Positions 24,159 through 38,523 of a stretch of 64,000 bases of DNA are shown piece by piece; the stretch's first letter is position 1; each line of letters opens with the position of its first letter. The notes under the pieces were generated by a model. The model saw only the letters and a list, made by a program, of their open reading frames with translations. It was not told the DNA's origin and searched no databases. The DNA is taken from contig JAHELJ010000018.1 in NCBI GenBank assembly GCA_024644235.1, positions 1 through 64,000 of the forward strand, read 5' to 3'. The position numbers were made by a program, and so were the translations under genes. This DNA comes from Lewinellaceae bacterium. Its GTDB lineage: Bacteria; Bacteroidota; Bacteroidia; Chitinophagales; Saprospiraceae.

Positions 24159-25061
24159 ATGGAGAAAAAGGAACGAAGAGCATTTCTCAAGTCGGGGCTC
24201 GCGGCCGGGGCAATAACCCTCGCCACTATCAGCAGTTGTACCGGTCCTAATATTAGTGAAGAAGAAGAGGAATTGGTAAACGTTCTGACACCTGATGGGA
24301 GATTGGTTCAAATACCAAAATCCATGGCAGCTGCAGACAGCTATGTTCCAGTGGGCCCCAAGGAAGCCCGGATTGGTATACCAAACAAGAAATTTGTGAT
24401 GGTGGTTGATCTGTCACGATGCACTAACGAGCGCAAATGCATTGATGCTTGTGACCATCATCATCATCTTACGCCGGATCGTCCATATATCAAGGTGTTG
24501 AGAATGCAGGATAATGAGGACTCATCACCTTACTGGATGCCTAAGAAATGTTTCCAATGCGATAATCCACCATGTGTCAAGGTCTGTCCGGTTTCTGCCA
24601 CCTATAAGCGATCGGACGGGATCGTATTGATCGATAACGAGCGTTGCATTGGATGCCGGTTCTGTATGTCCGCCTGTCCCTATTCTGCCCGGGTCTTCAA
24701 CTGGGGGCAGCCCCCCGAATCTATGGAGGAAGGATATGATGAAATACCTTATTCACCAGAGACAAGCGTACCCAGCAGAATAGGGACCGTAGGAAAGTGT
24801 GACTTCTGCCCGGATATGCTCAGGCAGGATAAAGTACCTCATTGCATTACCGCCTGCCCAAACGGTGCGCTATACTTCGGCGACAAGTTATCAGATACCG
24901 TGACCAATGGTGGAGAAACAGTACGGTTGAGTCAACTGCTTCGGGAGAAGGCAGGATACCGCTACCTTGAAGAACTGGGAACAGAGCCCAATGTCTATTA
25001 TTTACCTCCTGTAAATCGGGCTGTACCCTTTGAAGAAACTCTAAGTGACCAGGAAAGTTGA
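24159..25061 (+). CDS. Tat-exported four-cluster ferredoxin subunit (NrfC/DmsB-like), copy 1
   Basis: 300 residues. The Tat signal RRAFLKSG (residues 6-13) is followed by a Cys-containing hydrophobic stretch. Cys groups for clusters: C88-x2-E91-x2-C94-x3-C98 (second Cys of the usual CxxC replaced by Glu), CFQCDNPPCVKVCP, CIGCRFCMSACP, and CDFC...HCITACP. Three look like full [4Fe-4S] sites; the first has three Cys and may be [3Fe-4S]. It passes electrons between an NrfD quinone-binding subunit and a cytochrome or catalytic partner. Residues 38-55 (VLTPDGRLVQIPKS) match the 85-residue mini-protein and the second copy. Followed immediately by the NrfD gene. Confidence 0.92.
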   Translation: MEKKERRAFLKSGLAAGAITLATISSCTGPNISEEEEELVNVLTPDGRLVQIPKSMAAADSYVPVGPKEARIGIPNKKFVMVVDLSRCTNERKCIDACDHHHHLTPDRPYIKVLRMQDNEDSSPYWMPKKCFQCDNPPCVKVCPVSATYKRSDGIVLIDNERCIGCRFCMSACPYSARVFNWGQPPESMEEGYDEIPYSPETSVPSRIGTVGKCDFCPDMLRQDKVPHCITACPNGALYFGDKLSDTVTNGGETVRLSQLLREKAGYRYLEELGTEPNVYYLPPVNRAVPFEETLSDQES

Positions 25062-25065
25062 TCCA

Positions 25066-26397
25066 ATGGACCTAGTCGATAATCCAGACAGCACAAGAGA
25101 AGTAGGGAAATCCCGCCAGCAGATCGAACAGGATTTGCTTCGTCACGTCACCAAGTGGACAAAAAATGACAAACTCTGGTTGCTGTTTCTGGGTGTCGTT
25201 ATTTTGATCGGTGTTTTTGCCTATTACCGGCAACTGCGTTACGGCCTGCTCGTCACGGCTATGCGGGACTATACATCCTGGGGAATTTACATTTCCAATT
25301 TTGTCTTTTTTGTCGCAATCAGTCTAGTGGGATCTCTGGTAAGTTCCATCTTGAAATTGTCGAATGCTACCTGGTCAACGCCACTCACCCGGATCTCTGA
25401 GATCATAGCAATTGCTGCTATCATTTGCGCCAGTATAATTATTATCGTGGATATGGGTCGGCCCGACCGATTCATCTATGTTATCATATTTGGACGGATA
25501 CAGTCTCCGATTATCTGGGATGTCATCATTATTGTGACCTATCTAGCCATTAGTATCTTGTTGCTATACATATCGCTTATCCCTGACCTGGCTTTATGCC
25601 GTGACAAATTGCACGATGTACCGCGCTGGCAGAAGAAATTGTATGAGGTCTTTGCTTTGAATTGGAAAGGGGAGAAGAGACAGTATCAGATCATCCATAA
25701 GACTTCATCCATTCTCTGCATCATGGTGATTCCGGTTGCTTTTGCTATCCATACGGTCACTTCGTGGTTGTTTTCCACAACCTGGAGGCCAGGATGGGAT
25801 AGCACCAATTTAGGTCCGTATTTCGTGTCTGGAGCACTGATGGCTGGGGCAGCCGTGATCATTATAGCGATGTACTTTATCAGAAATTCCCTGCGATTGA
25901 AAGAGTACATTACCGAATTACACTTTGACCACATGGGTAAATTGCTGGTCTTACTCTCGGCCGTTTACTTGTATTTCAATATAAATGAGTACCTCGGGCC
26001 GTCCTTTAAAATGGTAGGAGTGGAGGGAGAGCATATAACCGAATTATTTTTTGGCAAGTATGCTTATATGTATTGGTTGGTTCAAATCTTTGGCTTGATC
26101 TTACCTATAGTAGCGCTCATTTATAAACCCCTCAGAGCTCCGTTTCCGATCATGGTGATTTCCTTCCTGGTCATCATTGGTGCCTGGGTGAAACGATTTT
26201 TGATTGTGATCCCGTCTCTCCAGCATCCCTATTTGCCGATCCAGGATGTCGACGAATCCTACTTGCATTATATCCCTACGTGGGAAGAATGGGCCATCAC
26301 TTTCGCTTCATTTGCAGGGGTTCTTTTGATTGTCACTTTAATCATCAAGCTGGTCCCGGTAATACCCGTGTGGGAATTAACTGATAACAAGGAATAG
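25066..26397 (+). CDS. NrfD-family membrane subunit, copy 1
   Basis: 443 residues from the ATG at 25066, preceded by AGGAAAG; a GTG at 25045 inside the Fe-S gene is also possible. About ten hydrophobic helices follow, with LWLLFLGVVILIGVFAYYRQL, NFVFFVAISLVGSLVSSIL, IIAIAAIICASIIIIVDMGR and others. The helices with RPDRF, W and His residues fit the quinone site of NrfD/PsrC. It is expected to oxidise or reduce quinol and exchange electrons with the Fe-S subunit. Second gene of a three-gene operon with an unnamed membrane-anchored protein 10 bp downstream. Confidence 0.92.
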   Translation: MDLVDNPDSTREVGKSRQQIEQDLLRHVTKWTKNDKLWLLFLGVVILIGVFAYYRQLRYGLLVTAMRDYTSWGIYISNFVFFVAISLVGSLVSSILKLSNATWSTPLTRISEIIAIAAIICASIIIIVDMGRPDRFIYVIIFGRIQSPIIWDVIIIVTYLAISILLLYISLIPDLALCRDKLHDVPRWQKKLYEVFALNWKGEKRQYQIIHKTSSILCIMVIPVAFAIHTVTSWLFSTTWRPGWDSTNLGPYFVSGALMAGAAVIIIAMYFIRNSLRLKEYITELHFDHMGKLLVLLSAVYLYFNINEYLGPSFKMVGVEGEHITELFFGKYAYMYWLVQIFGLILPIVALIYKPLRAPFPIMVISFLVIIGAWVKRFLIVIPSLQHPYLPIQDVDESYLHYIPTWEEWAITFASFAGVLLIVTLIIKLVPVIPVWELTDNKE

Positions 26398-26407
26398 TAC
26401 GTTAATT

Positions 26408-27277
26408 ATGAAAGGAGTGTGGAAATGTTTCGCTGTTGTCGCAGGGCTTGTCCTAAGTGCTGCTATTCAAGGACATGCCGCTCAGCAGGATCAGAAAAGT
26501 CGGGCCCGACTTTACCTCACCTATTTCAAATACTCCCCCACCGATCGTTATCTAAATATCAAGGTGATTACCAGAAAGGAACGACGAAATGTGCCGGTGG
26601 AAGATGTTAAAATTGAGTTTTATCTGGGTGAGAAGTCGAGTGCCGGTTACCTGGGCAGCATAATGACCGACAGGGAGGGACAGGGTTCTTTACTCCTTCC
26701 TCTGAGTTTCTATGCAGCTGCCGATACCTTGCTCAGCTATCTCTTTGTTGCAACCCTCACGGATAATTCTGAATACCTGGACACGGATATGGAATTGGAA
26801 ATTATTGACGCAAGTATTGAACTGCACGGTATTGTACAAGATAGCCAGAGGACTGTCCAAGCAATCGTTCGCGTCAGGGACTCGACTCTTGCCCTGGTAA
26901 CGGTACCGGATGTGCCTTTGAATTTCTTAGTTGAGCGGCCATTAAGCCTCTTGCCAATATCTGATCTTAAGCGCACCGGGGACAAGGGCATAGCCATGTC
27001 ACAATTTCCCAGTGATCTTCCTGGTGATCGGGAAGGTTATGTGACAGTAGTGGTTAAGATTGATGATCATGATCCATACGGAACCGTGTTGCAGCGGGAG
27101 ACACTTCGTTGGGGCATCCCCACCTCCTTCGATGACAAATCGCAAAAGCGTTCACTCTGGTCGGCACGGGCAAATACACCGATCCCCCTTTTATTATTGG
27201 TCAATGGCCTGATCCTGGTTACCTGGGGAATTATGATTTATATTGTCCGTGAACTCCTGCAGATAAAACACATATGA
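26408..27277 (+). CDS. Membrane-anchored periplasmic protein, partner of NrfD module 1, unknown function
   Basis: 289 residues. The signal peptide (CFAVVAGLVLSAAIQGHA) is followed by about 220 residues of beta-rich, Ig-like sequence and one C-terminal transmembrane helix (PLLLLVNGLILVTWGIMIYIV) with a short basic tail. It shares with the protein at 33441-34322 the segments FPSDLPGDREG (FPSDFSGDRDG), DDHD (EDHD), LRWG (LEWG) and LWS, so the two are paralogs despite low overall similarity. No cofactor motif. Co-transcribed after NrfD, 10 bp away; it likely assembles or shields the periplasmic Fe-S/cytochrome contact. I know no named family. Confidence 0.75.
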   Translation: MKGVWKCFAVVAGLVLSAAIQGHAAQQDQKSRARLYLTYFKYSPTDRYLNIKVITRKERRNVPVEDVKIEFYLGEKSSAGYLGSIMTDREGQGSLLLPLSFYAAADTLLSYLFVATLTDNSEYLDTDMELEIIDASIELHGIVQDSQRTVQAIVRVRDSTLALVTVPDVPLNFLVERPLSLLPISDLKRTGDKGIAMSQFPSDLPGDREGYVTVVVKIDDHDPYGTVLQRETLRWGIPTSFDDKSQKRSLWSARANTPIPLLLLVNGLILVTWGIMIYIVRELLQIKHI

Positions 27278-27911
27278 TTGATTAGGGGTAGTATGGAGAT
27301 GTGCTAAATATTCCCCTTCTAAACGTCTTCCACACCAAGTTTTTTTAGACATAGTAGCCAAAATTTACGTCCTCTCTTGCTATAGGAATTCCATGCGATA
27401 ATATCATGCTAGACCCATTATCAAAAGCAAGCCCTTGGGTGGGACCTCGTATTTACATACTCTGCAGAAATAGTAACGTGCAGAAAGGTGCAATCAACGA
27501 TTGATCTCGGCATTCACTTTATTCTCGGCTCCGGCAGATTATCATGTTTAACAAGAAGGCCATGAATGGATAAAAGCTGGCAATATTGACCCGGGGTGAC
27601 TCGTGGTCTGGGGTCTTCTGTGCGGATAGCTGAGTATCGATGTAATTACCTGTAATCAGATTCAGGAATAGTTGGCATTGACATAAGTAATTTCCCAATA
27701 GGAAAAGTAGTCATCCATCACGTTGGCTTTCGAAGAATCATCGATAATCCGTTGCATTGACTCATTCAAATGAGAGAAGTCCATCAATGGCATCAAGATA
27801 GCCATGAGATTGAAGCCTATCGATGACCTTGACTGGTGGCTCAATAGTCAGATCCCAGGCTATGAATCGGTAGTTGTAAGCTTGCCAGTCTGTAATTTTC
27901 TAATTATTGGC
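27278..27911. other. 634-bp intergenic region, no confident gene
   Basis: Lies between the module 1 end and the terminator of the hexaheme gene. One short minus-strand frame (27662-27805, 47 residues, MAILMPLMDFSHLNES...) has no recognised family or clear start signal and could be a gene remnant or chance. No repeats, tRNA or mobile-element ends were seen. Confidence 0.4.
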
Positions 27912-27943
27912 AAAAAAAAAGCGCATCTGAGCAGATGCGCTTT
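27912..27943 (-). terminator. Strong rho-independent terminator of the hexaheme cytochrome gene
   Basis: Stem AAAGCGCATCTG/CAGATGCGCTTT (12 bp with a 2-base centre, effective 4-base loop) followed on the minus strand by TTTTTTTTT. It sits 20 bp after the hexaheme stop codon. Confidence 0.93.
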
Positions 27944-27963
27944 ACCGGAAAGGTGTTTCCAGA

Positions 27964-29073
27964 TTATTCGTTCAAGGCTTTCAAGGACTCTTCCAGAAGT
28001 GCCCTCGCATATTTTGCATTGTGCACACCAAAGGTCATGTCTTCGTAAACGAATAGGGCGTTATACAAAGCACCTACATGAGCTGATGGAAACGTATCTT
28101 GAACAGATCTCCAGGCCCGGTTGCCTGTGGTGTCATCGATCATTCCTAATTCCAATAGTTTGCCACCAACCTCATAAAGCATGGCTCTTACTTCTGCTTG
28201 GGTTTCCGCCACAAGCATTTCCGCCTCATCGGCCGTGTGGCAATCAATACATCCAGCGGTATTCAGATCTCCGTCTTCGTTGATCACACCAAACTGGTGA
28301 CCACCCAGATCGGCTCCGGCATCATATTCCGCCATGTGGCACTGGATACAGGTTTCTCCAGTAGCAGAGAGCAAGGTAAAGTGGTTTGAGGATGGGAAAT
28401 CCACATCAGATCGTTCGGCTCCACCAGTAGCAGCAAACATCAGGCCTTGAGAGCCGTGGTGCGGTCCATATCGAGAAGAATTTACATAGATCATGGTGTC
28501 ACTATCCAATGGAGGAGGCATCGGATCCCAGGGAACATCAAGTTCACGCACTCGGGACTGGTGGCAACCTACGCATTGGTTACCCTTACCCAGATCGATA
28601 ATTTCGCCGTTGACCCAGAAAGGTACAGCATCTGTTTTGGTATTCGCCCAGTCGTCGGTGGTGTAAGTCTGGTGAATTTTGTGGCAAGTGTAACAGTTCG
28701 GTGGCAAAGGACCGACAATTCCTTCAGCAGTGCTCATGCCTCCAAACTCATTCACTTCAAGGAAGCCTTGACTTGAGTGGCAGGGTGCACAGGATGCGCT
28801 CTCACCACGTACATAACGTCCACCGGTGTAGTGCGTTGATCTTTCATATTGGAAGACCTTTTCAGCAATGTTCTGTCCTACGTGGCACATTGCGCAGTTG
28901 GTCGTACCGGCGATACCTTCAGGTCCGGCAGGTCCGGCCGCTCCAGCCGCCCCAGCAGCTCCCGTAGGTCCTGCGGGTCCCGTGGGTCCTTCAGGTCCTT
29001 CACAGGACATCATACCACCAATCAGAATAAAAGCAAAAATAGAGAGTGCGGTTAGCAATGATCGATTTTTCAT
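27964..29073 (-). CDS. Hexaheme cytochrome c lipoprotein with collagen-like Gly-X-Y stalk
   Basis: 369 residues. The signal peptide ends in a lipobox-like MMSC (Cys24). Residues 26-55 are ten uninterrupted Gly-X-Y triplets (GPE GPT GPA GPT GAA GAA GAA GPA GPE GIA), a collagen-like stalk. Six CxxCH heme motifs follow: CAMCH (C60), CAPCH, CYTCH, CVGCH, CIQCH and CIDCH. The last ~100 residues are helical and lack hemes. A surface or periplasmic electron carrier, with the stalk lifting the heme head from the membrane. Its gene has its own terminator and is divergent from the CX4CH cytochrome/beta-barrel operon, inside the Fe-S/NrfD gene region. Confidence 0.92.
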   Translation of the reverse strand: MKNRSLLTALSIFAFILIGGMMSCEGPEGPTGPAGPTGAAGAAGAAGPAGPEGIAGTTNCAMCHVGQNIAEKVFQYERSTHYTGGRYVRGESASCAPCHSSQGFLEVNEFGGMSTAEGIVGPLPPNCYTCHKIHQTYTTDDWANTKTDAVPFWVNGEIIDLGKGNQCVGCHQSRVRELDVPWDPMPPPLDSDTMIYVNSSRYGPHHGSQGLMFAATGGAERSDVDFPSSNHFTLLSATGETCIQCHMAEYDAGADLGGHQFGVINEDGDLNTAGCIDCHTADEAEMLVAETQAEVRAMLYEVGGKLLELGMIDDTTGNRAWRSVQDTFPSAHVGALYNALFVYEDMTFGVHNAKYARALLEESLKALNE

Positions 29074-29402
29074 GGGCTAAGTTTTTTTTAGCAATAGAAG
29101 ATGATCTGGTTATTCAATCAAATGCTGCGGTGTTGTCGGATTGCCACTTCCATAATTTTACATTTCCATGACAATGACGACAATATAGGAATTCAAGTTG
29201 AGCCGATACAATGATCTTAATCATCCCAATAAATGACTAGGTAGTATCTCATTATTTAGCAAGGTTATTAATCTTATTATGTTGAAAATCAACAAATTAA
29301 ATTTTATAGATAATTATTGCTTTGGGGAATTTACACGGGCAGCTATACCATTCCCGCTGGTTAGCAGAATTAGAAATCCGGAATAGCTACTAAATGCACT
29401 CA
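29074..29402. other. Divergent intergenic region of the cytochrome cluster, AT-rich
   Basis: No gene seen. The segment 29230-29330 is strongly AT-rich (TTATTAATCTTATTATGTTG and neighbours) and should hold the promoter of the hexaheme gene and perhaps others. Operator-like repeats follow at 29403-29455. Confidence 0.4.
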
Positions 29403-29455
29403 AGAGTCCTAATCGAGTCTAACCGGGGTGAGGGCAGAGTCCTAATTAGAATTAG
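29403..29455. promoter_or_regulatory. Direct repeats and palindrome upstream of the cytochrome/barrel operon
   Basis: The 11-mer AGAGTCCTAAT occurs at 29403-29413 and again at 29436-29446, 33 bp apart, about three helical turns. The second copy runs into a perfect palindrome CTAATT-AG-AATTAG (29442-29455). It lies about 50 bp before the start at 29507. A regulator-binding site is plausible but untested. Confidence 0.4.
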
Positions 29456-29506
29456 TATCAGAAATGATCAGCATCATCTTCATGGTCTTCGGGATGCCTC
29501 AATTTT

Positions 29507-29950
29507 ATGCCCAGTTTATTTCAATTTCAGCGAAGAATGAAATCACAGCATCTCAGATTAACCCTTCTGGTTTTAGTTTCACTACTGGTACTGCTTGGAG
29601 TATTCACCTCTTGCGAGTATGAGGAGATCTTACCTCCTGATGATGAGATTCCTATCGATACTACGGCACCGCCAGTGAGTTTTAGCCTCGACATTATTCC
29701 TCTATTCAATTCGAGTTGCAATACCAGTGGCTGCCATAGCCTGGGTGGCGTGGAGCCAGATCTCTCTCCGAATAATGCTTATGGCGAGCTTACGACAAAG
29801 GGCTATCTCAATCTGGATGATCCCGTGCAGAGTGAATTTTACCAATGGATTGCCGGAAATCGGCGGATCCCTATGCCGATTGCCGGTCCTGATCCTGAAA
29901 TTAACCGGCTAGTACTTACCTGGATAACACAAGGTGCTCCCGATAATTAA
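29507..29950 (+). CDS. CX4CH monoheme cytochrome-like lipoprotein
   Basis: 147 residues; an alternative ATG is at 29537, right before the hydrophobic signal. The signal ends in the lipobox GVFTSC (Cys36). The heme-type motif C71-NTSG-C76-H77 has four residues between the Cys instead of two; this CX4CH form with SFSLDIIPLFNSSC before it and MPIAGPDPEINRLVLTWI after it is widespread in Bacteroidota lipoproteins annotated as cytochrome-c-like. Followed one base after its stop by the DUF5777 beta-barrel gene, so the two are one operon. Likely carries electrons at the outer membrane if heme is attached. Confidence 0.8.
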   Translation: MPSLFQFQRRMKSQHLRLTLLVLVSLLVLLGVFTSCEYEEILPPDDEIPIDTTAPPVSFSLDIIPLFNSSCNTSGCHSLGGVEPDLSPNNAYGELTTKGYLNLDDPVQSEFYQWIAGNRRIPMPIAGPDPEINRLVLTWITQGAPDN

Positions 29951-29951
29951 A

Positions 29952-30860
29952 ATGATTAGACCTATGAATTTCAACATCTCTATTCGTAAAACTGTTGCCT
30001 TTGGGCTTGCCATCATGGTGTTGATGAGTTTGTCCTTGAATATATCGGCTCAGGAGGAACCACCTGAGCGAGATGACCGGCCGGTACGATCTACGTTTTC
30101 ATCGGTTTGGCTGATGGACAATCAAACCGTAGAAGTACCCTTCAAAGGCACCTTTGAATTTGATATTCAACATCGCTTTGGAGTAATAAATAATGGCTAC
30201 CGGGATTTCTTTGGATTATACGCGCCATCAAATATTCGATTGGGGTTTGCATATTCACCGGTTAATAAATTGAGTGTTGGCTTCGGTCTCACCAAGCTCA
30301 ATCTGACCTGGGACTTCAATGCCAAATATTCCCTACTCGCTCAGACCCGATCCGGATCAGTGCCGGTAAGTATAGTTTATTACGTCAATATGGCTATTGA
30401 TACACGCGAAAAGGAAAGGACGCTCTATGATGATTTTTCCAATCGTATTTCTTACTTCCACCAGGTATTGATTGGCCGTCGGTTCTCACCAAAGTTTAGT
30501 ATGCAGGTGGCTCCAAGTATTTCTCACTTCAATTTAGTGGAGGCATACCGGGTAACTAGTGAGACCATTGAAGGCACTAAAAGGAATGACCATTTGGCCA
30601 TCGCCATTGGGGCCCGGTTGAAGATTTCGGATCAAACCTCCGTTATGTTTAACTATGATATCCCTATCACCGATCATCCATTGGAAGATCCAGAGCCGAA
30701 TCTGAGTTTTGGCATTGAGCTGACTTCCAGTTCACATGCCTTTCAGATCTTCCTGGGAAACTTTTATGACATTATTCCGCAACGAAACAACTTCAATAAT
30801 CGCAACGAACCAGGCGATATGTTGATTGGATTTAACATCACCCGTCTTTGGAACTTTTAA
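29952..30860 (+). CDS. DUF5777 family beta-barrel protein
   Basis: 302 residues from ATG 29952; an alternative ATG is at 29964. Signal peptide (FGLAIMVLMSLSLNISAQ), then amphipathic beta-strand sequence through to a C-terminal aromatic (ITRLWNF), typical of an outer-membrane barrel. Conserved DUF5777 pieces are VEVPFKGTFEFDIQHRFG, FFGLYAPSNIRLGFAYSP and DHLAIAIGARL. Families of this type sit beside cytochrome genes in Bacteroidota. Here it follows the CX4CH lipoprotein by one base and precedes the second Fe-S/NrfD module by 10 bp to the Tat mini-protein, so it could be the barrel of an outer-membrane electron conduit; that role is inference. Confidence 0.85.
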   Translation: MIRPMNFNISIRKTVAFGLAIMVLMSLSLNISAQEEPPERDDRPVRSTFSSVWLMDNQTVEVPFKGTFEFDIQHRFGVINNGYRDFFGLYAPSNIRLGFAYSPVNKLSVGFGLTKLNLTWDFNAKYSLLAQTRSGSVPVSIVYYVNMAIDTREKERTLYDDFSNRISYFHQVLIGRRFSPKFSMQVAPSISHFNLVEAYRVTSETIEGTKRNDHLAIAIGARLKISDQTSVMFNYDIPITDHPLEDPEPNLSFGIELTSSSHAFQIFLGNFYDIIPQRNNFNNRNEPGDMLIGFNITRLWNF

Positions 30861-30870
30861 TTGGTACTTC

Positions 30871-31128
30871 ATGAAAAAAGAACAAAATCGACGCAGGACT
30901 TTCCTCGGTAAGCTGGGACTCAGTTTGCTTTCAATACCTGTAATCACAAGGTCTTCAGAATTGCATCATACTGACGATTCCAAGGAAACCCAGTTCATGT
31001 TGACGCCAGACGGGAAGCTTGTGGAAATTCCCAAGAATATTTATCGGAATGCTACTAGTCGATCAGATGTCAGGAAAAGAAAAAAACTCTGGATGTGGTT
31101 GACAAATAGCAAAAACCAGATCAAATAA
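30871..31128 (+). CDS. 85-residue Tat-signal mini-protein resembling the N-terminus of the Fe-S subunits
   Basis: From ATG 30871. A Tat motif NRRRTFLGKLG (residues 6-16) and hydrophobic segment (LSLLSIPVITRSS) are followed by FMLTPDGKLVEIPKNIYRN. The LTPDGKLVEIP block matches VLTPDGRLVQIP in the Fe-S protein at 24159 and LSPEGEVIEVP in the one at 31146. No Cys and no ferredoxin domain follow; it ends with a basic stretch (RKRKKLWMWLTN). It sits 10 bp after the barrel gene and 17 bp before the second Fe-S gene, so it is co-transcribed with them. Either a truncated paralog or a real small subunit or chaperone; intact frame and spacing favour a working gene. Confidence 0.75.
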   Translation: MKKEQNRRRTFLGKLGLSLLSIPVITRSSELHHTDDSKETQFMLTPDGKLVEIPKNIYRNATSRSDVRKRKKLWMWLTNSKNQIK

Positions 31129-31145
31129 GCCATTAATCTCAGCTC

Positions 31146-32105
31146 ATGGAAAATAGGAAACAGACCGAATCAAGGGATCAAAGCGCACGCCGCGATTTCA
31201 TAAAAATTGGCCTGGGAACTCTGGCTGCTGCTTCCTGCGGTGGTGGTCTCTGTTCGTGTAAGGGAAAGCAAGAAAAGGATACCATCGAACTTCTGTCCCC
31301 GGAGGGCGAAGTTATTGAGGTGCCTGCTCACCACGTGAAACACGTGCACAAGACGGTAGGTGTATCCCGGGAAGAGGCACGAAAAGGAATTCCGGGCAGG
31401 AAGTTTGTCATGGTGATAGACCTTGGCCGGTGTAAGAACGCCAGGAACTGCATCACGGCATGCCAGAAAATGCACCACCTGCCAGAAGACAAGGAGTGGA
31501 TCTCTGTTCTTCTTATGAAAGACAGTGAAGAAGCCAGTCCTTATTGGTTTCCTAAGACGTGCTTCCATTGTGATAATCCTCCCTGCGTAAAAGTATGTCC
31601 AGTGGATGCGACCTTCAAGCGAAGTGATGGTTTAGTACTCATCGATACCGAGCGTTGCATTGGATGTAAATTTTGCATGGCAGCTTGCCCTTATTCTACG
31701 AGGGTCTTTAACTGGGATGAGCCCGAGCAACCGGAAGAAATTCAAGCACTGGACTATTCTCCGGAAACGAGCGTGCCCAGCAAGATCGGGACGGTAGAAA
31801 AATGTGATTTCTGTCCGGATATGGCCAGGATGGGTAAGTTGCCCGACTGTGTGACGGCTTGTCCTAATGGTGTATTTTATTTCGGCGATGAAAATGAAGA
31901 TGTGGTCACTAACGGTTCTGAGACCGTCAGGTTTAGCGAGTTAATCCGGGATAAAAGTGGGTATAGATATATGGAAGATCTGGGAACAGAGCCAAGGGTC
32001 TACTACTTACCCCCACGAGACCGCCTGTTTCCTTGGGAGCGGGGATTGGATGATCTATCCGATGACATAAAAGATCGATTTAAAGACGTCCTTGAAGATA
32101 TTTAA
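31146..32105 (+). CDS. Tat-exported four-cluster ferredoxin subunit (NrfC/DmsB-like), copy 2
   Basis: 319 residues, paralog of the protein at 24159. Tat signal ARRDFIKIG (residues 14-22) with Cys-rich SCGGGLCSCKG after it. Cys groups: C96-x2-A99-x2-C102-x3-C106 (one Cys missing, as in copy 1 but with Ala), CFHCDNPPCVKVCP, CIGCKFCMAACP, CDFC...DCVTACP. The tail YLPPRDRLFPWERGL parallels copy 1 (YLPPVNRAVPFEETL). Expected to link an NrfD subunit to periplasmic cytochromes. Downstream NrfD starts one base after its stop codon, so the pair is tightly coupled. Confidence 0.92.
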   Translation: MENRKQTESRDQSARRDFIKIGLGTLAAASCGGGLCSCKGKQEKDTIELLSPEGEVIEVPAHHVKHVHKTVGVSREEARKGIPGRKFVMVIDLGRCKNARNCITACQKMHHLPEDKEWISVLLMKDSEEASPYWFPKTCFHCDNPPCVKVCPVDATFKRSDGLVLIDTERCIGCKFCMAACPYSTRVFNWDEPEQPEEIQALDYSPETSVPSKIGTVEKCDFCPDMARMGKLPDCVTACPNGVFYFGDENEDVVTNGSETVRFSELIRDKSGYRYMEDLGTEPRVYYLPPRDRLFPWERGLDDLSDDIKDRFKDVLEDI

Positions 32106-32106
32106 C

Positions 32107-33444
32107 ATGACAATTTCAGATAAGGCAAAAACACTATTGTCCGAATTTTCAGGACCATTAGAAAAATCAACTACCATTTCGAAGATTTGGATCTTCTTTT
32201 TGGTCCTTTTGATCGCCTGGGGAATGGTCGGGCTTTATTACCAGGTACGATATGGTCATGTGGTGACGGGTATGCGGGACCATGTGGTCTGGGGAATATT
32301 CATAGCTAACTTTATTTTCTTCATCGGTATCAGCTATGCAGGGGCGGTGATCTCAGGTGTTCTCCACCTGCTAAAGATCGAATGGAGAAAGCCATTTATT
32401 CGAATTGCTGAGCTTATCACAGTCATTGCTACCATCATAGGCCCTGTATTTATTCTATTGTGTGTAGGCCGGCTCGACAGGTTGCACCACCTAATTATTT
32501 ATCCTCGTCTGCAATCTCCCATCACCTGGGATGTTCTGGCGATATCTACCTATCTGATGGGTAGTATTCTTTTGTTGTACCTGGCGTTGATCAGGGATTT
32601 CGCCATCTACCGGGATAGTCCCGAACTAAAGGTGCCCAATTGGCAAAGGAAATGGTATCGATGGCTTGCTTTGGGTTTCCGTAATACCCCTGAGCAAAAT
32701 CGTCGAATCGAGATCTCGATGCAGCTCTTGGCAATCATGATCATACCCCTTGCGATCATCGTACATTCCGTGCTGTCTTGGATTTTTGGTATGACGTTAA
32801 GGCCGGGATGGCATAGTACCATTTTTGGACCATACTTCGTTCTTGCTGCTATCTACTCTGGCACCGGAGTTTTGATTATTGCGATGTGGGTCTTTAGAAA
32901 GATCTACAAGCTGGATGAGTACATACAAGACAAGCATTTCACATACGTGGGTTATATGCTCCTTGTTCTCGCCGCTGGTTATGGGTATTTTACATTTTCG
33001 GAGTATTTGACTCATTGGTACGGGTCAGAGCACTGGGATATGGAAGTCCTCCATAAGCTATTTAACTGGGAGGAGTATGGCGGACTATTCCTCTTCGCCA
33101 ATCTTGGGGGCATTGTTCTGCCGATGCTGATCGTTGCGATCCCATCACTGCGCAAACCGGGCTGGATCACTTTCGGCTCAGCCGTAATGGTGCTGGCTAT
33201 GTGGGTGAAAAGATATTTGATCATCGTTCCAACTCTTGAAACACCACTTCTGCCGATTCAGGACACTCGAGTGGAATTTGTGTACTATTCGATCACTTGG
33301 GTAGAATGGTCTCTCACGATAGGGGGATTGGCTACGTTCCTTCTATTGTTTACGCTGGCATCAAAGTTTGTAACAATAATACCAGTGGCTGAGATGAGTG
33401 AGACGAAAGCTGAGAGTGTTCACTTAAAAATGGAAACCACATGA
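32107..33444 (+). CDS. NrfD-family membrane subunit, copy 2
   Basis: 445 residues from ATG 32107; a TTG at 32092 lies inside the Fe-S gene and is unlikely. Ten or so transmembrane helices, e.g. IWIFFLVLLIAWGMVGLYYQV, NFIFFIGISYAGAVISGVL, ELITVIATIIGPVFILLCVGR. Clearly paralogous to the protein at 25066 (shared WGIxI-NFxFF and R-x-KPxxR patterns). A quinone-interacting membrane component. Overlaps the next gene by 4 bp (ATGA), so translation is coupled. Confidence 0.92.
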   Translation: MTISDKAKTLLSEFSGPLEKSTTISKIWIFFLVLLIAWGMVGLYYQVRYGHVVTGMRDHVVWGIFIANFIFFIGISYAGAVISGVLHLLKIEWRKPFIRIAELITVIATIIGPVFILLCVGRLDRLHHLIIYPRLQSPITWDVLAISTYLMGSILLLYLALIRDFAIYRDSPELKVPNWQRKWYRWLALGFRNTPEQNRRIEISMQLLAIMIIPLAIIVHSVLSWIFGMTLRPGWHSTIFGPYFVLAAIYSGTGVLIIAMWVFRKIYKLDEYIQDKHFTYVGYMLLVLAAGYGYFTFSEYLTHWYGSEHWDMEVLHKLFNWEEYGGLFLFANLGGIVLPMLIVAIPSLRKPGWITFGSAVMVLAMWVKRYLIIVPTLETPLLPIQDTRVEFVYYSITWVEWSLTIGGLATFLLLFTLASKFVTIIPVAEMSETKAESVHLKMETT

Positions 33445-34322
33445 GATCCAAGTTCATATATCGATATATCGTGCTGTTAGGTTGTCTGGTTTTAAGTCTG
33501 ACATTTCTGAAATCTCAGGATGAGGGGGTCGAGATGATGAGGTCCAGACTGAGTCTTACCGTCATACAGAAAGATGATAACAAGATCGACCTACAGGCTG
33601 ATTTCAGGGTACGAAAAGAAAGATCTTATGAGCGAATGGCCGGCGTACCTGTAATATTTCTGATTTCAAGAGATTCAATCAACGAGGAGATTGGGGAGGC
33701 ATTGACCAACGAAGACGGTGCAGCCATTCTCGAAATTGAAGCAGCCGATTGGATAGCCGTGGATACTCAGACGATTACATTTATTGCAACCTATGAAGGC
33801 AATGATAGCATATCGCCATCAGATCGCGATGCGACGGTTATGAGAGCCAATCTCGCCCTTGAGGGGTTGGAGTTGGACTCTGCGCAAAAGCAGGTCCAAC
33901 TGACACTGATTGGTACTGAAGATGGTACGATGAAGCCGGTGGCCAGTGCAGAAGTCAATCTCTACCTAAAACGGCTCTTCAGCAACTACAAAGTGGGTTC
34001 TGCCGAAACCGATGATGACGGAATAGCACTGGTAGATTTTCCATCGGATTTCAGCGGTGATCGAGACGGTAATCTCGACCTGATTGCCATGGTTGAGGAT
34101 CATGATCTATTTAGTACGGTCAGAACCGCGAGGAAACTTGAATGGGGTCAGAAAATTGAGGAAGGGGAACAAGAACTGCCACCGGGTTTATGGAGTACTG
34201 ATGCTCCCATGTGGATGTTGATAACTTTTATCGTATTAATGGGAACTGTTTGGGGGCATTATATAGTTATTGTGCTGAATCTATTCAAGATTAAAAAAGA
34301 GGGAAAAATTTTAACATCCTAG
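33441..34322 (+). CDS. Membrane-anchored periplasmic protein, partner of NrfD module 2, unknown function
   Basis: 293 residues, with a signal peptide (IVLLGCLVLSLTFLKSQ), a roughly 220-residue periplasmic part rich in acidic residues, and a C-terminal transmembrane helix (WMLITFIVLMGTVWGHYIVIVL) with a lysine-rich tail. It shares FPSDFSGDRDG, EDHD, LEWG and LWS with the protein at 26408. It overlaps NrfD by 4 bp and is followed 18 bp later by a class I cytochrome c. Conserved position after NrfD in both modules suggests it is a fixed subunit. Confidence 0.75.
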   Translation: MRSKFIYRYIVLLGCLVLSLTFLKSQDEGVEMMRSRLSLTVIQKDDNKIDLQADFRVRKERSYERMAGVPVIFLISRDSINEEIGEALTNEDGAAILEIEAADWIAVDTQTITFIATYEGNDSISPSDRDATVMRANLALEGLELDSAQKQVQLTLIGTEDGTMKPVASAEVNLYLKRLFSNYKVGSAETDDDGIALVDFPSDFSGDRDGNLDLIAMVEDHDLFSTVRTARKLEWGQKIEEGEQELPPGLWSTDAPMWMLITFIVLMGTVWGHYIVIVLNLFKIKKEGKILTS

Positions 34323-34340
34323 CAATAAATCAGAAGTAAT

Positions 34341-34742
34341 ATGAAAAATGGAATATTGAAGTTCATGGTATTGACTGGATTAACCATTGGACTATTTGCA
34401 TTTGTCGAAACTCAGACCGACCCCTGGGAAGTACCCGATAAATATAAGAGTATGAAGAACCCGGTAGCCAGTGACAGCGAGTCTATTTCAATTGGGAAGA
34501 CGCTTTACAACCAGCATTGCAAGTCTTGTCATGGCAAGGAAGGTCTGGGAGATGGACCTAAAGCCGCGCAGTTGGATACACCGGCTGGAGATTTTTCAGC
34601 TCCGGAATTTCATGCTCAGAGTGATGGAGCTCTATTCTATAAATCATGGATAGGCCGGGACGAAATGCCCAATTTTGAGAAGAAGATCCCGGATGAAGAA
34701 GATGTTTGGCATCTTGTTAATTTTATGAGGACACTGGAATAG
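34341..34742 (+). CDS. Class I cytochrome c, soluble monoheme
   Basis: 133 residues with an N-terminal signal (LKFMVLTGLTIGLFAFVET). The heme motif C60-KS-C63-H64 and the downstream distal Met in RDEMPNFEKKIPDEED fit a small class I cytochrome c. The helix DVWHLVNFMRTLE closes the fold. Last gene of the second module, 18 bp after the membrane-anchored protein. Likely receives or delivers electrons for the NrfD/Fe-S complex. Confidence 0.92.
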   Translation: MKNGILKFMVLTGLTIGLFAFVETQTDPWEVPDKYKSMKNPVASDSESISIGKTLYNQHCKSCHGKEGLGDGPKAAQLDTPAGDFSAPEFHAQSDGALFYKSWIGRDEMPNFEKKIPDEEDVWHLVNFMRTLE

Positions 34743-34850: not shown

Positions 34851-34889
34851 GCGTCTTTAAGAGGATGATTAGTCATCCATTAAAGACGC
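34851..34889 (+). promoter_or_regulatory. Hairpin enclosing the start codon of the sensor kinase, with a small upstream frame
   Basis: Outer arms GCGTCTTTAA (34851-34860) and TTAAAGACGC (34880-34889) are exact reverse complements, and inner arms GGATGA (34863-34868) and TCATCC (34873-34878) pair around TTAG. The start ATG at 34865 lies inside the inner arm. A six-codon frame begins at ATG 34848 (MASLRG) and its TGA (34866-34868) overlaps the start codon as ATGA. The structure could hide the start site until the short frame is translated, or it could be a DNA operator. It has no T-tract and is unlikely to be only a terminator. Confidence 0.55.
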
Positions 34890-37786
34890 TTCTTTGTTTG
34901 TGGCTTCTGACAACTTCCCTGGAAGCATGGAACCAGGTTTACCATTTTGACCGCTTCGGCGTCGAAGAAGGTCTTTCCTCCTCATTCCTCAGTGATCTTG
35001 CAATCGACAGTCAGGGATACATTTGGATTGCTTCATGGGGAGGAGGCACAATGCGCTTTGACGGTGTCACGTTCGAGCCAGTAGAATCATGTGGTTCTTC
35101 ACGGTACGTTTCCTCCATTCATCTAGAAAAAGACAAGAGGATCTGGATTGGAGCAGCTAGTGAACTAATCCGATTGCATCGCAGATCAAAAGCGTGTGAT
35201 GTGATCAACCTCGAGGCAAGTGTACTGGACATTCTGGTTTTTGATAAATCTTTAGTCGTGGCTACGGAGAACGGCTTTTTTGAAATCGACAAAGAAGAGA
35301 TGAGCATTTCGCGCCATCTGCTAGAAGGCATTGCGGTCTACGAGCTAGTCAAGTCCGGTAATGAAATTTATGCTGGAACACAGCAGGGGTTAGTTAAGAT
35401 CACAGACAAATCCTGGCAAAGGGAGGTGGTAGACATCACGATATCAGAAGTTAGAGCCCTATCTCTGGATCAACAGGGTACCCTTTGGGAAGCTGGCATG
35501 GAGGGTATCAAGACCCTTTCAACTAGTACGACTGTTATTGATTGGCCTGGTCCCTTAGCTCTTTCCCCAACTTTTATCACTCCCGGGTCTTTGGGTAGTT
35601 TGTTTATTGGTACCAGCACCCATGGCATTTTTATTTGGCAAAGCATCGACTCTTCTTGGCAGCAAATCGACGAGTCGCAACTTGGATTTGATCATGTCAC
35701 GCAAATGATATTCGATGATTGGGGTAATGCCTGGATCGCTTCTTTTGGAGGAGGGCTGATCAGATATGGAGCTCAATTATTACGATGGCATTCCCAGGAA
35801 ACAGGATTAGGGGGAAGATTCGTTCGTCAAGTACGGCCAGATAGCCAATCCGGGATAAATGTTTTGTATAACAATGGAAAAGTGGATCGAATCGATAATA
35901 GACAAATAATCAATTTTGAGCCTGACTGGGCAACAAATCGAGAGTATACCGCTCTTCCTGTTTCAGAAAATTTTAGCAACTGGATGGCTACCGAAGAAGG
36001 AATATTGAAGTTGTGGCGAGAAGCAGTTTACCAGGTGCAGTCTGATACAGGCTGGCAGCAGCCGATTTCATCATTTGCAGTTATGGATAGTAGTCGGATT
36101 ATTCTCTGTACAGATGATGGGATGTGGCAGGTCTCGACTGCTGCACCAGAGGTTGATTCTTCTGCTTTGATTTTTAAAATTAAGCGAATACATCCGGGTC
36201 CGTTGAGACATCTTTTTCTCGACAAATTTTCAAACGTTTGGTCATGGGGTCCAAACAATCTAATCTGCATGTCTGATTCGATTTATCAAGTTGATCTCAG
36301 GTTTTATGAAAGACAAATTTACCCCACTACCATTGCGGAAACGATGAATGGGGAGATAGTCATCGGATCCCGGGATGCAGGCATTTTTTTTGTGAGGAGA
36401 AGAGGTGGAGAAATGGTTCTCGAAGCCTTGCAGAAGTCAGAGGATTTACCAACTAAGCAAATCAGAACGATTCTCATCGATGGGGATCAAATGTGGATTG
36501 GAACGAACGATGGCATCGCGGTTGGTAAGATCCAGCCAGGTCCGGTTTTTCAATTGGAGACATGGCTGGATAGGAGTTCAGGTTTGATGAATCCGGATAT
36601 CAATGAGCATGCAGGGATAGTTGCAGATAATCAACACATATACTTTGGGACATCAAGCGGACTCCTAGAATTCTACCCCAGCACTAATGCTGCTCGTGGT
36701 TATGGACCCCGACTTAGTATTGAATCCGTTCTAATCAACGATGAAGAAATCGAGTTGTTAGATGAACAGCCTCTTCGACTGATTGGTGAGAATCCGCATT
36801 TTTCTATTGTTTCGAATGCCATAGACTTGGGCCTTCCTTTGGGAATAAAATATTATTGGAGGCTGAATGGCCACGATGCAGAGTGGCGACTTTCGTCTTC
36901 GGGAGGCCATATTGACCTATGGACTGTGCCCTATGGGAGCTATAACTTAGAACTGAAAGCAGTGAATCTCAAGGGCATCGAAAGCAACATTTTGGCCTTG
37001 CCCCTGGATGCATTGCCTCCGATATGGAAAAGACCCTGGTTTACAGTATTAGGAATAGTAATGACTCTTTCAAGCCTGTACGTCATCTACCGGATCAGAC
37101 TCAAAAAATTGTTAAGGCAATCTGCTCGAAAGGCGAGAGATCTTGAGATCCAAAATAATTTGCTAAAGCTTGAGCAGCAGGCTCTCCGGTTGCAGATGAA
37201 TCCACATTTCATATTTAATGCATTGCAGTCAATTCAGACGGTGATGCGGGAAGGTAAAATAGCAGAAGCAGAAGTGCATCTGAGAAAATTTGGTGATTTG
37301 ATGAGAAGATTATTGGATCAGAGTAGGCGGGATTCAATTTCGCTTGATGACGAAATTCAGAGTCTGAATGCATATTTAGAAATAGAGCGATCAATTCGAA
37401 GTGAGAGATTTGATTTTTCAATTGCCATTCATTCAGATGTGGACCTCTCTTTTTATCATATTCCTCCCATGGTGATTCAACCATTTGTGGAGAACGCAGT
37501 TAAGCACGGTCTTCCTGTGAATGGTATTAAAGGGGATATACAGATCAGTATGAAGTTGAAAGGAAGATATTTGGAATGCACTATTGAAGACAATGGACCA
37601 GGTATCGTAAAACCTAAGCAGCCTGGACATCGATCGGCCGGTATCCAGGTCACCTCGGATCGATTAAGATCGTTAAGCTCATCCGGCGGGTTGGATCCTG
37701 TGCGGATTGAAACACTGAGGAAGGACGAGAGGGTAAGCGGGACGATGGTGACTTTATTCATACCTATTATCGAGGAAGAAGCATGA
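34865..37786 (+). CDS. Two-component sensor: Reg_prop beta-propeller, Y_Y_Y domain, LytS-type histidine kinase
   Basis: 973 residues. Signal peptide (LKTLLCLWLLTTSLEA), then about 600 residues of Reg_prop repeats (LAIDSQGYIWIASWGGGTMRF, WIGAASELIRL, GTNDGIAVG), a Y_Y_Y domain (YYWRLNGHDAEWRLSS, GSYNLELKAVNLKG), one transmembrane helix near 725 (PWFTVLGIVMTLSSLYVIYRI), and a LytS/HisKA_5 kinase with MNPHFIFNALQSIQ (phospho-acceptor H781) and the ATPase motifs FVENAVKHGLP and IEDNGPGI. Senses an extracellular or periplasmic ligand and phosphorylates the LytTR regulator, whose start overlaps its stop by 4 bp. It follows the electron-transfer cluster by 122 bp. Confidence 0.92.
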   Translation: MISHPLKTLLCLWLLTTSLEAWNQVYHFDRFGVEEGLSSSFLSDLAIDSQGYIWIASWGGGTMRFDGVTFEPVESCGSSRYVSSIHLEKDKRIWIGAASELIRLHRRSKACDVINLEASVLDILVFDKSLVVATENGFFEIDKEEMSISRHLLEGIAVYELVKSGNEIYAGTQQGLVKITDKSWQREVVDITISEVRALSLDQQGTLWEAGMEGIKTLSTSTTVIDWPGPLALSPTFITPGSLGSLFIGTSTHGIFIWQSIDSSWQQIDESQLGFDHVTQMIFDDWGNAWIASFGGGLIRYGAQLLRWHSQETGLGGRFVRQVRPDSQSGINVLYNNGKVDRIDNRQIINFEPDWATNREYTALPVSENFSNWMATEEGILKLWREAVYQVQSDTGWQQPISSFAVMDSSRIILCTDDGMWQVSTAAPEVDSSALIFKIKRIHPGPLRHLFLDKFSNVWSWGPNNLICMSDSIYQVDLRFYERQIYPTTIAETMNGEIVIGSRDAGIFFVRRRGGEMVLEALQKSEDLPTKQIRTILIDGDQMWIGTNDGIAVGKIQPGPVFQLETWLDRSSGLMNPDINEHAGIVADNQHIYFGTSSGLLEFYPSTNAARGYGPRLSIESVLINDEEIELLDEQPLRLIGENPHFSIVSNAIDLGLPLGIKYYWRLNGHDAEWRLSSSGGHIDLWTVPYGSYNLELKAVNLKGIESNILALPLDALPPIWKRPWFTVLGIVMTLSSLYVIYRIRLKKLLRQSARKARDLEIQNNLLKLEQQALRLQMNPHFIFNALQSIQTVMREGKIAEAEVHLRKFGDLMRRLLDQSRRDSISLDDEIQSLNAYLEIERSIRSERFDFSIAIHSDVDLSFYHIPPMVIQPFVENAVKHGLPVNGIKGDIQISMKLKGRYLECTIEDNGPGIVKPKQPGHRSAGIQVTSDRLRSLSSSGGLDPVRIETLRKDERVSGTMVTLFIPIIEEEA

Positions 37787-38523
37787 TTAAGGCAATCATA
37801 GTTGAAGATAATGCAGATTCACTGCGGCATTTGAAAAGCATTTTGAGCGAATTTTGTCCGCAAGTGGAGGTAACTGGTACTACATCAGGAGTTGTTGCTG
37901 CGGCAAAGATTATCAAACAAGACCCTCCCGATCTCATCTTTCTTGACATAGAATTAGAGGATGGAAGTGGATTTGATCTATTGGAAATTCTTACAGACAT
38001 TCATTTCAAGGTGATTTTCATAACGGGATCAGATCAACATGCCATACGGGCTTTTCGTTTTTCGGCCATTGATTATTTGCTAAAGCCGGTGAAAGAGGAA
38101 GAACTTGTAGAGGCGGTAGAAAAGGTTCACCTGCGAGATTCCGCCGATAATGTTGAAGTTTTGCTGGAGGCGTGGCAAGAGAACCATCGGATACCTCGGA
38201 TCACGTTGAGAAATAGTGATGAGATCAAGATTATATCGGTCGATCAGATCGTCAGGTGTGAGTCAGATAGTAGTTATACAACTTTTCACTTCATCGACGG
38301 ATCCCGCTTTCTGGTTTCCAAAACACTGAAATCCTATTCTTCGTTGCTGCTCCCATTTCAGTTCATGCGAGTGCATCAATCTCACCTGGTGAATCTCAAT
38401 CAAGTCCAGTCATACATGAAAGCTGACGGGGGATATCTTTTGATGAGTGACGGTAGTGAGATTCCGGTGGCTATCCGTAAACGCGCACAGCTATCCAGGT
38501 GGTTGGCACGAGGTGAAGTGTGA
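37783..38523 (+). CDS. LytTR-family response regulator
   Basis: 246 residues. A receiver domain at 1-115 with acidic residues E8-D9, phospho-acceptor D55 in LIFLDIELEDGSG, and K at VKPVKEE (LLKPVKEEELVEAV). A LytTR DNA-binding domain occupies the last ~100 residues: RCESDSSYTTFHFIDGS, FMRVHQSHLVNLNQV, YLLMSDGSEIPVAIRKRAQL. Starts inside the sensor stop (4-bp overlap). Target genes are not shown; the adjacent cytochrome cluster is an obvious candidate. Confidence 0.93.
   Translation: MIKAIIVEDNADSLRHLKSILSEFCPQVEVTGTTSGVVAAAKIIKQDPPDLIFLDIELEDGSGFDLLEILTDIHFKVIFITGSDQHAIRAFRFSAIDYLLKPVKEEELVEAVEKVHLRDSADNVEVLLEAWQENHRIPRITLRNSDEIKIISVDQIVRCESDSSYTTFHFIDGSRFLVSKTLKSYSSLLLPFQFMRVHQSHLVNLNQVQSYMKADGGYLLMSDGSEIPVAIRKRAQLSRWLARGEV

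Follow-up and report, generated by a model that had tools for sequence, protein, structure and literature searches.

The 64,000-nucleotide stretch of DNA analysed here (the window) belongs to contig C123 in the 5.63-Mb, 97% complete genome assembly of a Lewinellaceae bacterium, which has its relatives among the Bacteroidota. Between positions 24159 and 34742 it carries a respiratory gene set in which two triads, each encoding an iron-sulfur (Fe-S) subunit, an NrfD membrane subunit and a membrane-anchored partner, stand around genes for a hexaheme lipoprotein, a CX4CH lipoprotein, a DUF5777 barrel and a small twin-arginine translocation (Tat) protein, with a monoheme cytochrome c gene at the end. 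A preliminary description made from the DNA alone had reported this arrangement, and open reading frame and domain searches recovered all of its genes, at or close to the positions given there. The triads are called D-type and C-type after the residue, Asp or Cys, found in NrfD at the position of His139 in ActC, a subunit of alternative complex III (ACIII). The features are as follows.

24159..25061, + strand: FeS1, Tat-exported four-cluster Fe-S subunit, DsrO/NrfC-like, of the D-type module, without the second Cys of motif I
25045..26397, + strand: NrfD1, NrfD/ActC-like membrane subunit, D-type, with Asp at the ActC His139 position and the Ser164 and Asp169 equivalents kept
26408..27277, + strand: partner 1, predicted signal peptide, two immunoglobulin (Ig)-like domains and C-terminal membrane helix, as judged from the homologous partner 2 model
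27918..27943, - strand: strong intrinsic-terminator-like hairpin 3′ of the hexaheme gene, with an 11-pair stem and a T run
27964..29073, - strand: hexaheme lipoprotein with six CXXCH motifs and a collagen-like G-X-Y stalk, MtrC/MtrF domain II/IV-like (PF22113 above cut-off)
29507..29950, + strand: CX4CH lipoprotein, a monoheme cytochrome, PSCyt1-like, whose relatives carry CXXCH at the same place
29934..30860, + strand: DUF5777 outer-membrane barrel (PF19089, E 7e-77), predicted to have 12 strands
30871..31128, + strand: Tat mini-protein of about 85 amino acids (aa), from a conserved family, with an L-x-x-DGKLVEV segment common to the Fe-S subunit N-terminus
31146..32105, + strand: FeS2, Fe-S subunit of the C-type module
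32092..33444, + strand: NrfD2, C-type membrane subunit with Cys where ActC has His139; translation probably begins at ATG 32107
33441..34322, + strand: partner 2, modelled (predicted local distance difference test score, pLDDT, 92) with two Ig-like domains and a C-terminal helix at residues 257-292
34341..34742, + strand: class I monoheme cytochrome c; CXXCH and Met109 are invariant in its family, and His/Met ligation is expected

The Fe-S and NrfD subunits match PF13247 and PF03916 above cut-off, and partner 1 matches no Pfam family. By their similarity the two triads are judged true paralogues: FeS1 and FeS2, stand-alone Fe-S proteins of 300 and 319 aa, are 57% identical (E 5e-129), the NrfD copies 41% (E 8e-98) and the partners 28% (E 3e-29). 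Gene strand and spacing point to at least three transcription units, comprising FeS1-NrfD1-partner 1, the hexaheme gene on the minus strand, and the run from the CX4CH gene to cytochrome c. As had been claimed at the outset, no molybdopterin catalytic subunit (PF00384) is encoded in the locus; the only match in the assembly is unlinked, on contig C192. Directly 3′ of the cytochrome c gene (34865-38523) are genes judged by eye to encode a LytTR-like response regulator and a large sensor of the two-component type whose N-terminal part has beta-propeller-like repeats; they possibly regulate the set.

Scanning GTDB genomes with an alignment of the Fe-S subunit, we took the best 80 loci, which belong to Saprospirales, Chitinophagales, Cyclobacteriaceae, Sphingobacteriales, Flavobacteriales, Bacteroidales and one Calditrichota metagenome-assembled genome (MAG). 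Full context, defined as at least 6 kb upstream and at least 4 kb downstream, was available for 69 Fe-S genes; close relatives were not thinned. NrfD is the next gene in all 69, followed by the partner in 62, a count somewhat inflated by loci fetched via the partner. A cytochrome c gene lies within 6 kb in 60, and the loci include a CX4CH family member (59), DUF5777 (58), the Tat mini-protein (at least 33), a lipoprotein of the EB_dh family (PF09459; 25), a second Fe-S gene (15) and the hexaheme protein (five). Fe-S, NrfD, partner and cytochrome c genes together with a CX4CH-DUF5777 pair thus recur across Bacteroidota, and the first four also in the Calditrichota MAG. Finding the same gene order in dozens of genomes puts the set far outside what chance would produce. 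The two-module state described at the outset is one configuration, and single-module loci are commoner.

Among 199 genomes of the order, profile searches found the partner in 19; at the level of the phylum it was found in 7 of 296 (E < 1e-40), and two further weak matches there look like chance. DUF5777 occurs in 115 of the same 296 Bacteroidota genomes, most of which lack the partner, and is not specific to the set. The Tat mini-protein, at first described as unusual, is present but no one-off: it belongs to a conserved family found in 27 loci, and a broken Fe-S copy is rejected, as the family recurs intact ahead of Fe-S genes. Some loci (for example L029:4261-6546 and L036:4220-6469) have two more genes between DUF5777 and the Fe-S genes, one for an RND-like membrane protein and one for a small lipoprotein (clusters c17 and c16, each in five loci). 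At L149 (G279:C10), positions 1-2000 hold a CRISPR-like repeat array (SYQRSVLVADSQ read in frame); the respiratory genes lie some 3 kb downstream of it.

Compared with known structures, the NrfD profile matches ActC best (6f0k_C, E 5e-82; 6btm_C, 2e-76) and ActF weakly, with PsrC not within the threshold, placing these subunits nearest to ActC by sequence. The quinone-site residues of ActC are retained, Ser164 in 114 of 115 NrfD rows and Asp169 in 113 of 115, and both window copies keep both. This Ser is reportedly conserved in all quinone-reactive NrfD proteins, and the ActC site residues have been described (PMC8076601). The conserved signature and the linkage to cytochromes uphold the earlier view of a quinone-linked Fe-S/NrfD module. 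In the Fe-S subunit, 15 cluster cysteines are kept; three of the four Cys of motif I are present in all rows, and the second is replaced in 102 of 104. In NarGHI, motif I and the last Cys of motif IV bind FS1, the cluster farthest from the membrane, and a motif that loses its second Cys usually holds a [3Fe-4S] cluster. Read by analogy with NarGHI, the loss in motif I suggests an unusual outermost cluster, probably [3Fe-4S], at the point where electrons would exit.

At the ActC His139 position, in transmembrane helix 2 (TMH2), the NrfD proteins of the set carry Asp in 32 rows, Cys in 74 and rarely Ser. The NrfD tree splits into D and C types, and since the Fe-S and partner trees show the same split, each triad has evolved as a unit. 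The window's triads, one D and one C, belong to two old, anciently diverged module types. C is paired with D in 7 of the 10 multi-module loci counted, including loci from Cyclobacteriaceae and the Calditrichota MAG; the exceptions are L116 (C+C) and L118 and L119 (both S+C). An eleventh locus, L147, is D+D, with hexaheme, EB_dh-like, CX4CH-family, barrel and mini-protein genes and both triads in one gene run. By these combinations, C/D pairing is frequent but not obligatory.

The partner model shows two predicted Ig-like domains and one membrane helix, without a cofactor motif; structure searches returned only general Ig-like matches, with query TM-scores of about 0.3 or less. CXXCH and Met are invariant throughout the family of the operon cytochrome c, which is expected to be of the high-potential type with His/Met ligation. 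Nine members of the CX4CH family carry CXXCH in the same columns, and for this reason we take the CX4CH lipoprotein to be a heme protein and reject a non-heme motif. The hexaheme protein scores 42.6 bits with PF22113 (cut-off 30) and 15.8 with TIGR03507, the OmcA/MtrC family model (cut-off 209). All six of its heme motifs are CXXCH, with no CXXCK active-site motif, and its collagen-like stalk is conserved within its family. EB_dh heme domains were identified in relatives (PF09459, E 6e-21) and no EB_dh protein in the window's own genome. EB_dh lipoproteins (for example L034:3685-5022) have CX3CH for CXXCH, a rare heme-attachment spacing.

The DUF5777 model comprises 12 strands (pLDDT 91), with FapF and NanC as best structural matches. 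Its bore, estimated geometrically at about 10 Å, would be too narrow to sheath a multiheme protein, unlike that of the far larger MtrB. The gene directly upstream of DUF5777 encodes a cytochrome in 86 of the 87 cases that could be tested (CX4CH-type in 80, hexaheme in four, EB_dh in two), and the common lipoprotein partners of the barrel are monoheme, mostly with a conserved Met-Pro. The window's genome holds two more DUF5777 genes without Fe-S/NrfD genes (L140, G000:C178; L141, G000:C223), one after a YceI-like gene and one directly after a CX4CH lipoprotein gene. Cytochrome-barrel pairs are thus not confined to loci with Fe-S/NrfD genes.

The preliminary description had called for comparison with the ACIII, Qrc, Nrf and Dsr gene sets; the composition of the locus matches none of them, nor polysulfide reductase (PSR). 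ACIII (ActABCDEF; 6f0k, 6btm) is among the closest known systems: besides the ActC-like NrfD subunits with their retained quinol-site Ser and Asp, the Fe-S subunit resembles the C-terminal part of ActB and the operon includes a monoheme cytochrome c. However, none of the eleven assigned genes encodes a pentaheme ActA or an ActD (PF11821), and the stand-alone Fe-S subunit lacks the molybdopterin-like domain of ActB, which in this genome is a 1070-aa protein on another contig. The set adds the anchored Ig-domain partner, its Cys loss falls in motif I rather than motif III, and the genome has a separate ACIII locus (L143).

In the DsrMKJOP comparison, DsrO and DsrP are the best NCBIfam matches and the TMH2 Asp is shared with NrfD1. 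Despite this top rank, membership is rejected: DsrO scores 170.5 and 180.8 (cut-off 200) and DsrP 138.9 (cut-off 350; NrfD1 scanned), and DsrM, DsrK and DsrJ are absent among the locus genes. QrcABCD and NhcABCD likewise have an Fe-S/NrfD pair that exchanges electrons with c-type cytochromes and no working molybdenum site, but the locus has no QrcA or QrcB, and scores are 122-128 for QrcC (cut-off 400) and 69 for QrcD (cut-off 570). It differs from NrfABCD in having no NrfA, with 117-122 for the NrfC model (cut-off 377.6), and from the complex iron-sulfur molybdoenzymes (CISM; PSR and the dimethyl sulfoxide, tetrathionate and arsenate reductases) in having no linked PF00384 subunit. MtrCAB shares the MtrC-like hexaheme domain family and a cytochrome gene adjoining a barrel gene; here the barrel has 12 predicted strands, MtrA is missing and the lipoproteins are mostly monoheme. 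The full composition of ACIII, Dsr, Nrf, Qrc, CISM or MtrCAB was found in no case. In keeping with stand-alone NrfCD pairs, the locus encodes NrfC-like and NrfD-like proteins with the quinone-site Ser in both copies and no PF00384 nearby. One such pair, Mros1571-1572 of Melioribacter roseus, has no catalytic subunit, and c-type or multihaem cytochromes were suggested as its acceptors (PMC3534657). Compared by description rather than by sequence, it shares the Fe-S and NrfD subunits; that account mentions no anchored partner, Tat mini-protein, CX4CH-DUF5777 unit or paired module types. Other NrfD clusters fitting no described complex have also been reported (PMC10732223).

As to where the electrons go, nosZ is found in 13 of 19 carriers of the partner within the order against 58 of 180 other genomes (Fisher p 0.004), and in 7 of 7 carriers against 92 of 289 others in the phylum (p 0.0004). 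These statistics ignore kinship, and three genomes are shared between the samples. Next to one locus (L028) stand nosZ and genes for Rrf2, a RIC-like protein and a cytochrome c. At another (L148:13161-14907), the set is followed downstream by a norC/norB-like pair, recognised by eye, and two genes for small outer-membrane-like proteins separate the two. Crp/Fnr-type regulators occur near 13 loci. The nosZ enrichment, the nosZ and nor neighbours and these regulators together favour a high-potential acceptor. The window's genome has nosZ (L142); NirK and NirS gave no match over threshold there. A link to nitrite is not clear, with NirS in 1 of 199 genomes of the order, NirK over cut-off in 5 of 19 carriers versus 28 of 199 overall, and NrfA (PF02335) in none of the 199, the window's included (E 1e-60). 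At L101:1-14000, an ACIII operon (ActD confirmed by PF11821) runs directly into hexaheme, CX4CH-family, DUF5777, Fe-S, NrfD and partner genes.

On a modest balance of probability, we favour a pared-down, ACIII-like menaquinol:cytochrome c oxidoreductase, of which the window encodes two copies that diverged long ago. NrfD would oxidise menaquinol near the periplasmic face, and the Tat-exported Fe-S subunit would pass the electrons through its four clusters to the operon class I cytochrome c, with the Ig-domain partner either holding the complex together or docking the acceptor. Cytochrome c could then feed periplasmic and outer-membrane cytochrome lipoproteins (CX4CH; EB_dh elsewhere; hexaheme here), high-potential reductases such as NosZ, or both. 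Because the invariant heme motif and Met mark the cytochrome as a high-potential type, oxidation of menaquinol would run downhill, and it is this downhill flow that argues for a quinol:cytochrome c oxidoreductase.

Several observations weigh on the other side. A genome that already has ACIII needs a reason for a second quinol:cytochrome c enzyme, and a plain role of this kind does not account for the barrel and lipoproteins. The nosZ association carries no correction for kinship and holds for only 13 of the 19 carriers in the order, and nos/nor adjacency occurs in single loci only. NrfD2 has neither an acidic residue nor His in TMH2; its Cys is no proof of a dead site, however, because the corresponding QrcD variant (D120A) retains growth and activity (PMC13059093). 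The same work describes Qrc as reducing menaquinone with a related Fe-S/NrfD pair (PMC13059093).

A broader possibility, which we entertain only tentatively, is a distinct Bacteroidota complex in which Asp-type and Cys-type modules cooperate as ActC and ActF do and drive a unit of outer-membrane cytochrome lipoprotein and 12-strand DUF5777 barrel, with the terminal acceptor left unnamed. Somewhat less probable is an outer-membrane conduit, in which quinol electrons would reach an extracellular acceptor such as Fe(III) through hexaheme and CX4CH lipoproteins held by DUF5777. The near-constant cytochrome gene upstream of the barrel fits such a conduit, a like role was proposed for the Melioribacter pair (PMC3534657), and the stalked hexaheme lipoprotein, with its MtrC/MtrF domain score, keeps the idea alive for the window's variant. 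Yet the modelled barrel is too narrow for an MtrB-type sheath, the hexaheme protein is rare among relatives, the usual monoheme Met-Pro partners are of a type uncommon in low-potential conduits, and DUF5777 mostly occurs without the partner; the electron transfer to the outer membrane first suggested for this locus is weakened accordingly.

Electron input is more doubtful still: lipoprotein cytochromes would take up periplasmic or extracellular electrons and the Fe-S/NrfD pair would reduce menaquinone, as QrcCD does (PMC13059093), and the EB_dh family of the relatives does include a subunit of a substrate-oxidising dehydrogenase. Such flow would be uphill, with His/Met monohemes expected above the menaquinone potential; the genome's own molybdenum protein on C192 has no relative in the 100 neighbourhoods searched, and an EB_dh protein is missing from that genome. 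A diverged DsrOP/Nrf relative with a hidden catalytic subunit, such as a lipoprotein reducing a nitrogen or sulfur compound, is improbable: DsrO and DsrP rank first and a catalytic CX4CH or EB_dh lipoprotein is conceivable, but the scores all fall below curated cut-offs, DsrMKJ and NrfA are missing and the hexaheme motifs include no CXXCK.

The open-access literature that we searched contains no description of the whole gene set, no mention of DUF5777 and nothing on a combination of YceI with NrfD; a description elsewhere is possible. NrfCD pairs without a catalytic subunit, as possible quinol donors to multihaem cytochromes, are already known (PMC3534657), so that only the combination, and not its core, can stand as undescribed. 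What seems new is the composition, with the anchored Ig-domain partner, the Tat mini-protein, the cytochrome-DUF5777 unit and the two module types.

Many Bacteroidota carry nosZ, and the phylum is common in activated sludge, soils and marine particles; ACIII is usually taken to be the route from their quinol pool to the periplasmic reductases. If the menaquinol:cytochrome c reading is true, a second and simpler quinol:cytochrome c route, found across the phylum and enriched in nosZ genomes, would change models of its electron transport. The minimal subunit set would offer a clean test of energy conservation by NrfD, and the pairing of cytochrome and DUF5777 genes offers a clue to the function of a barrel family that more than one third of the sampled Bacteroidota genomes contain.

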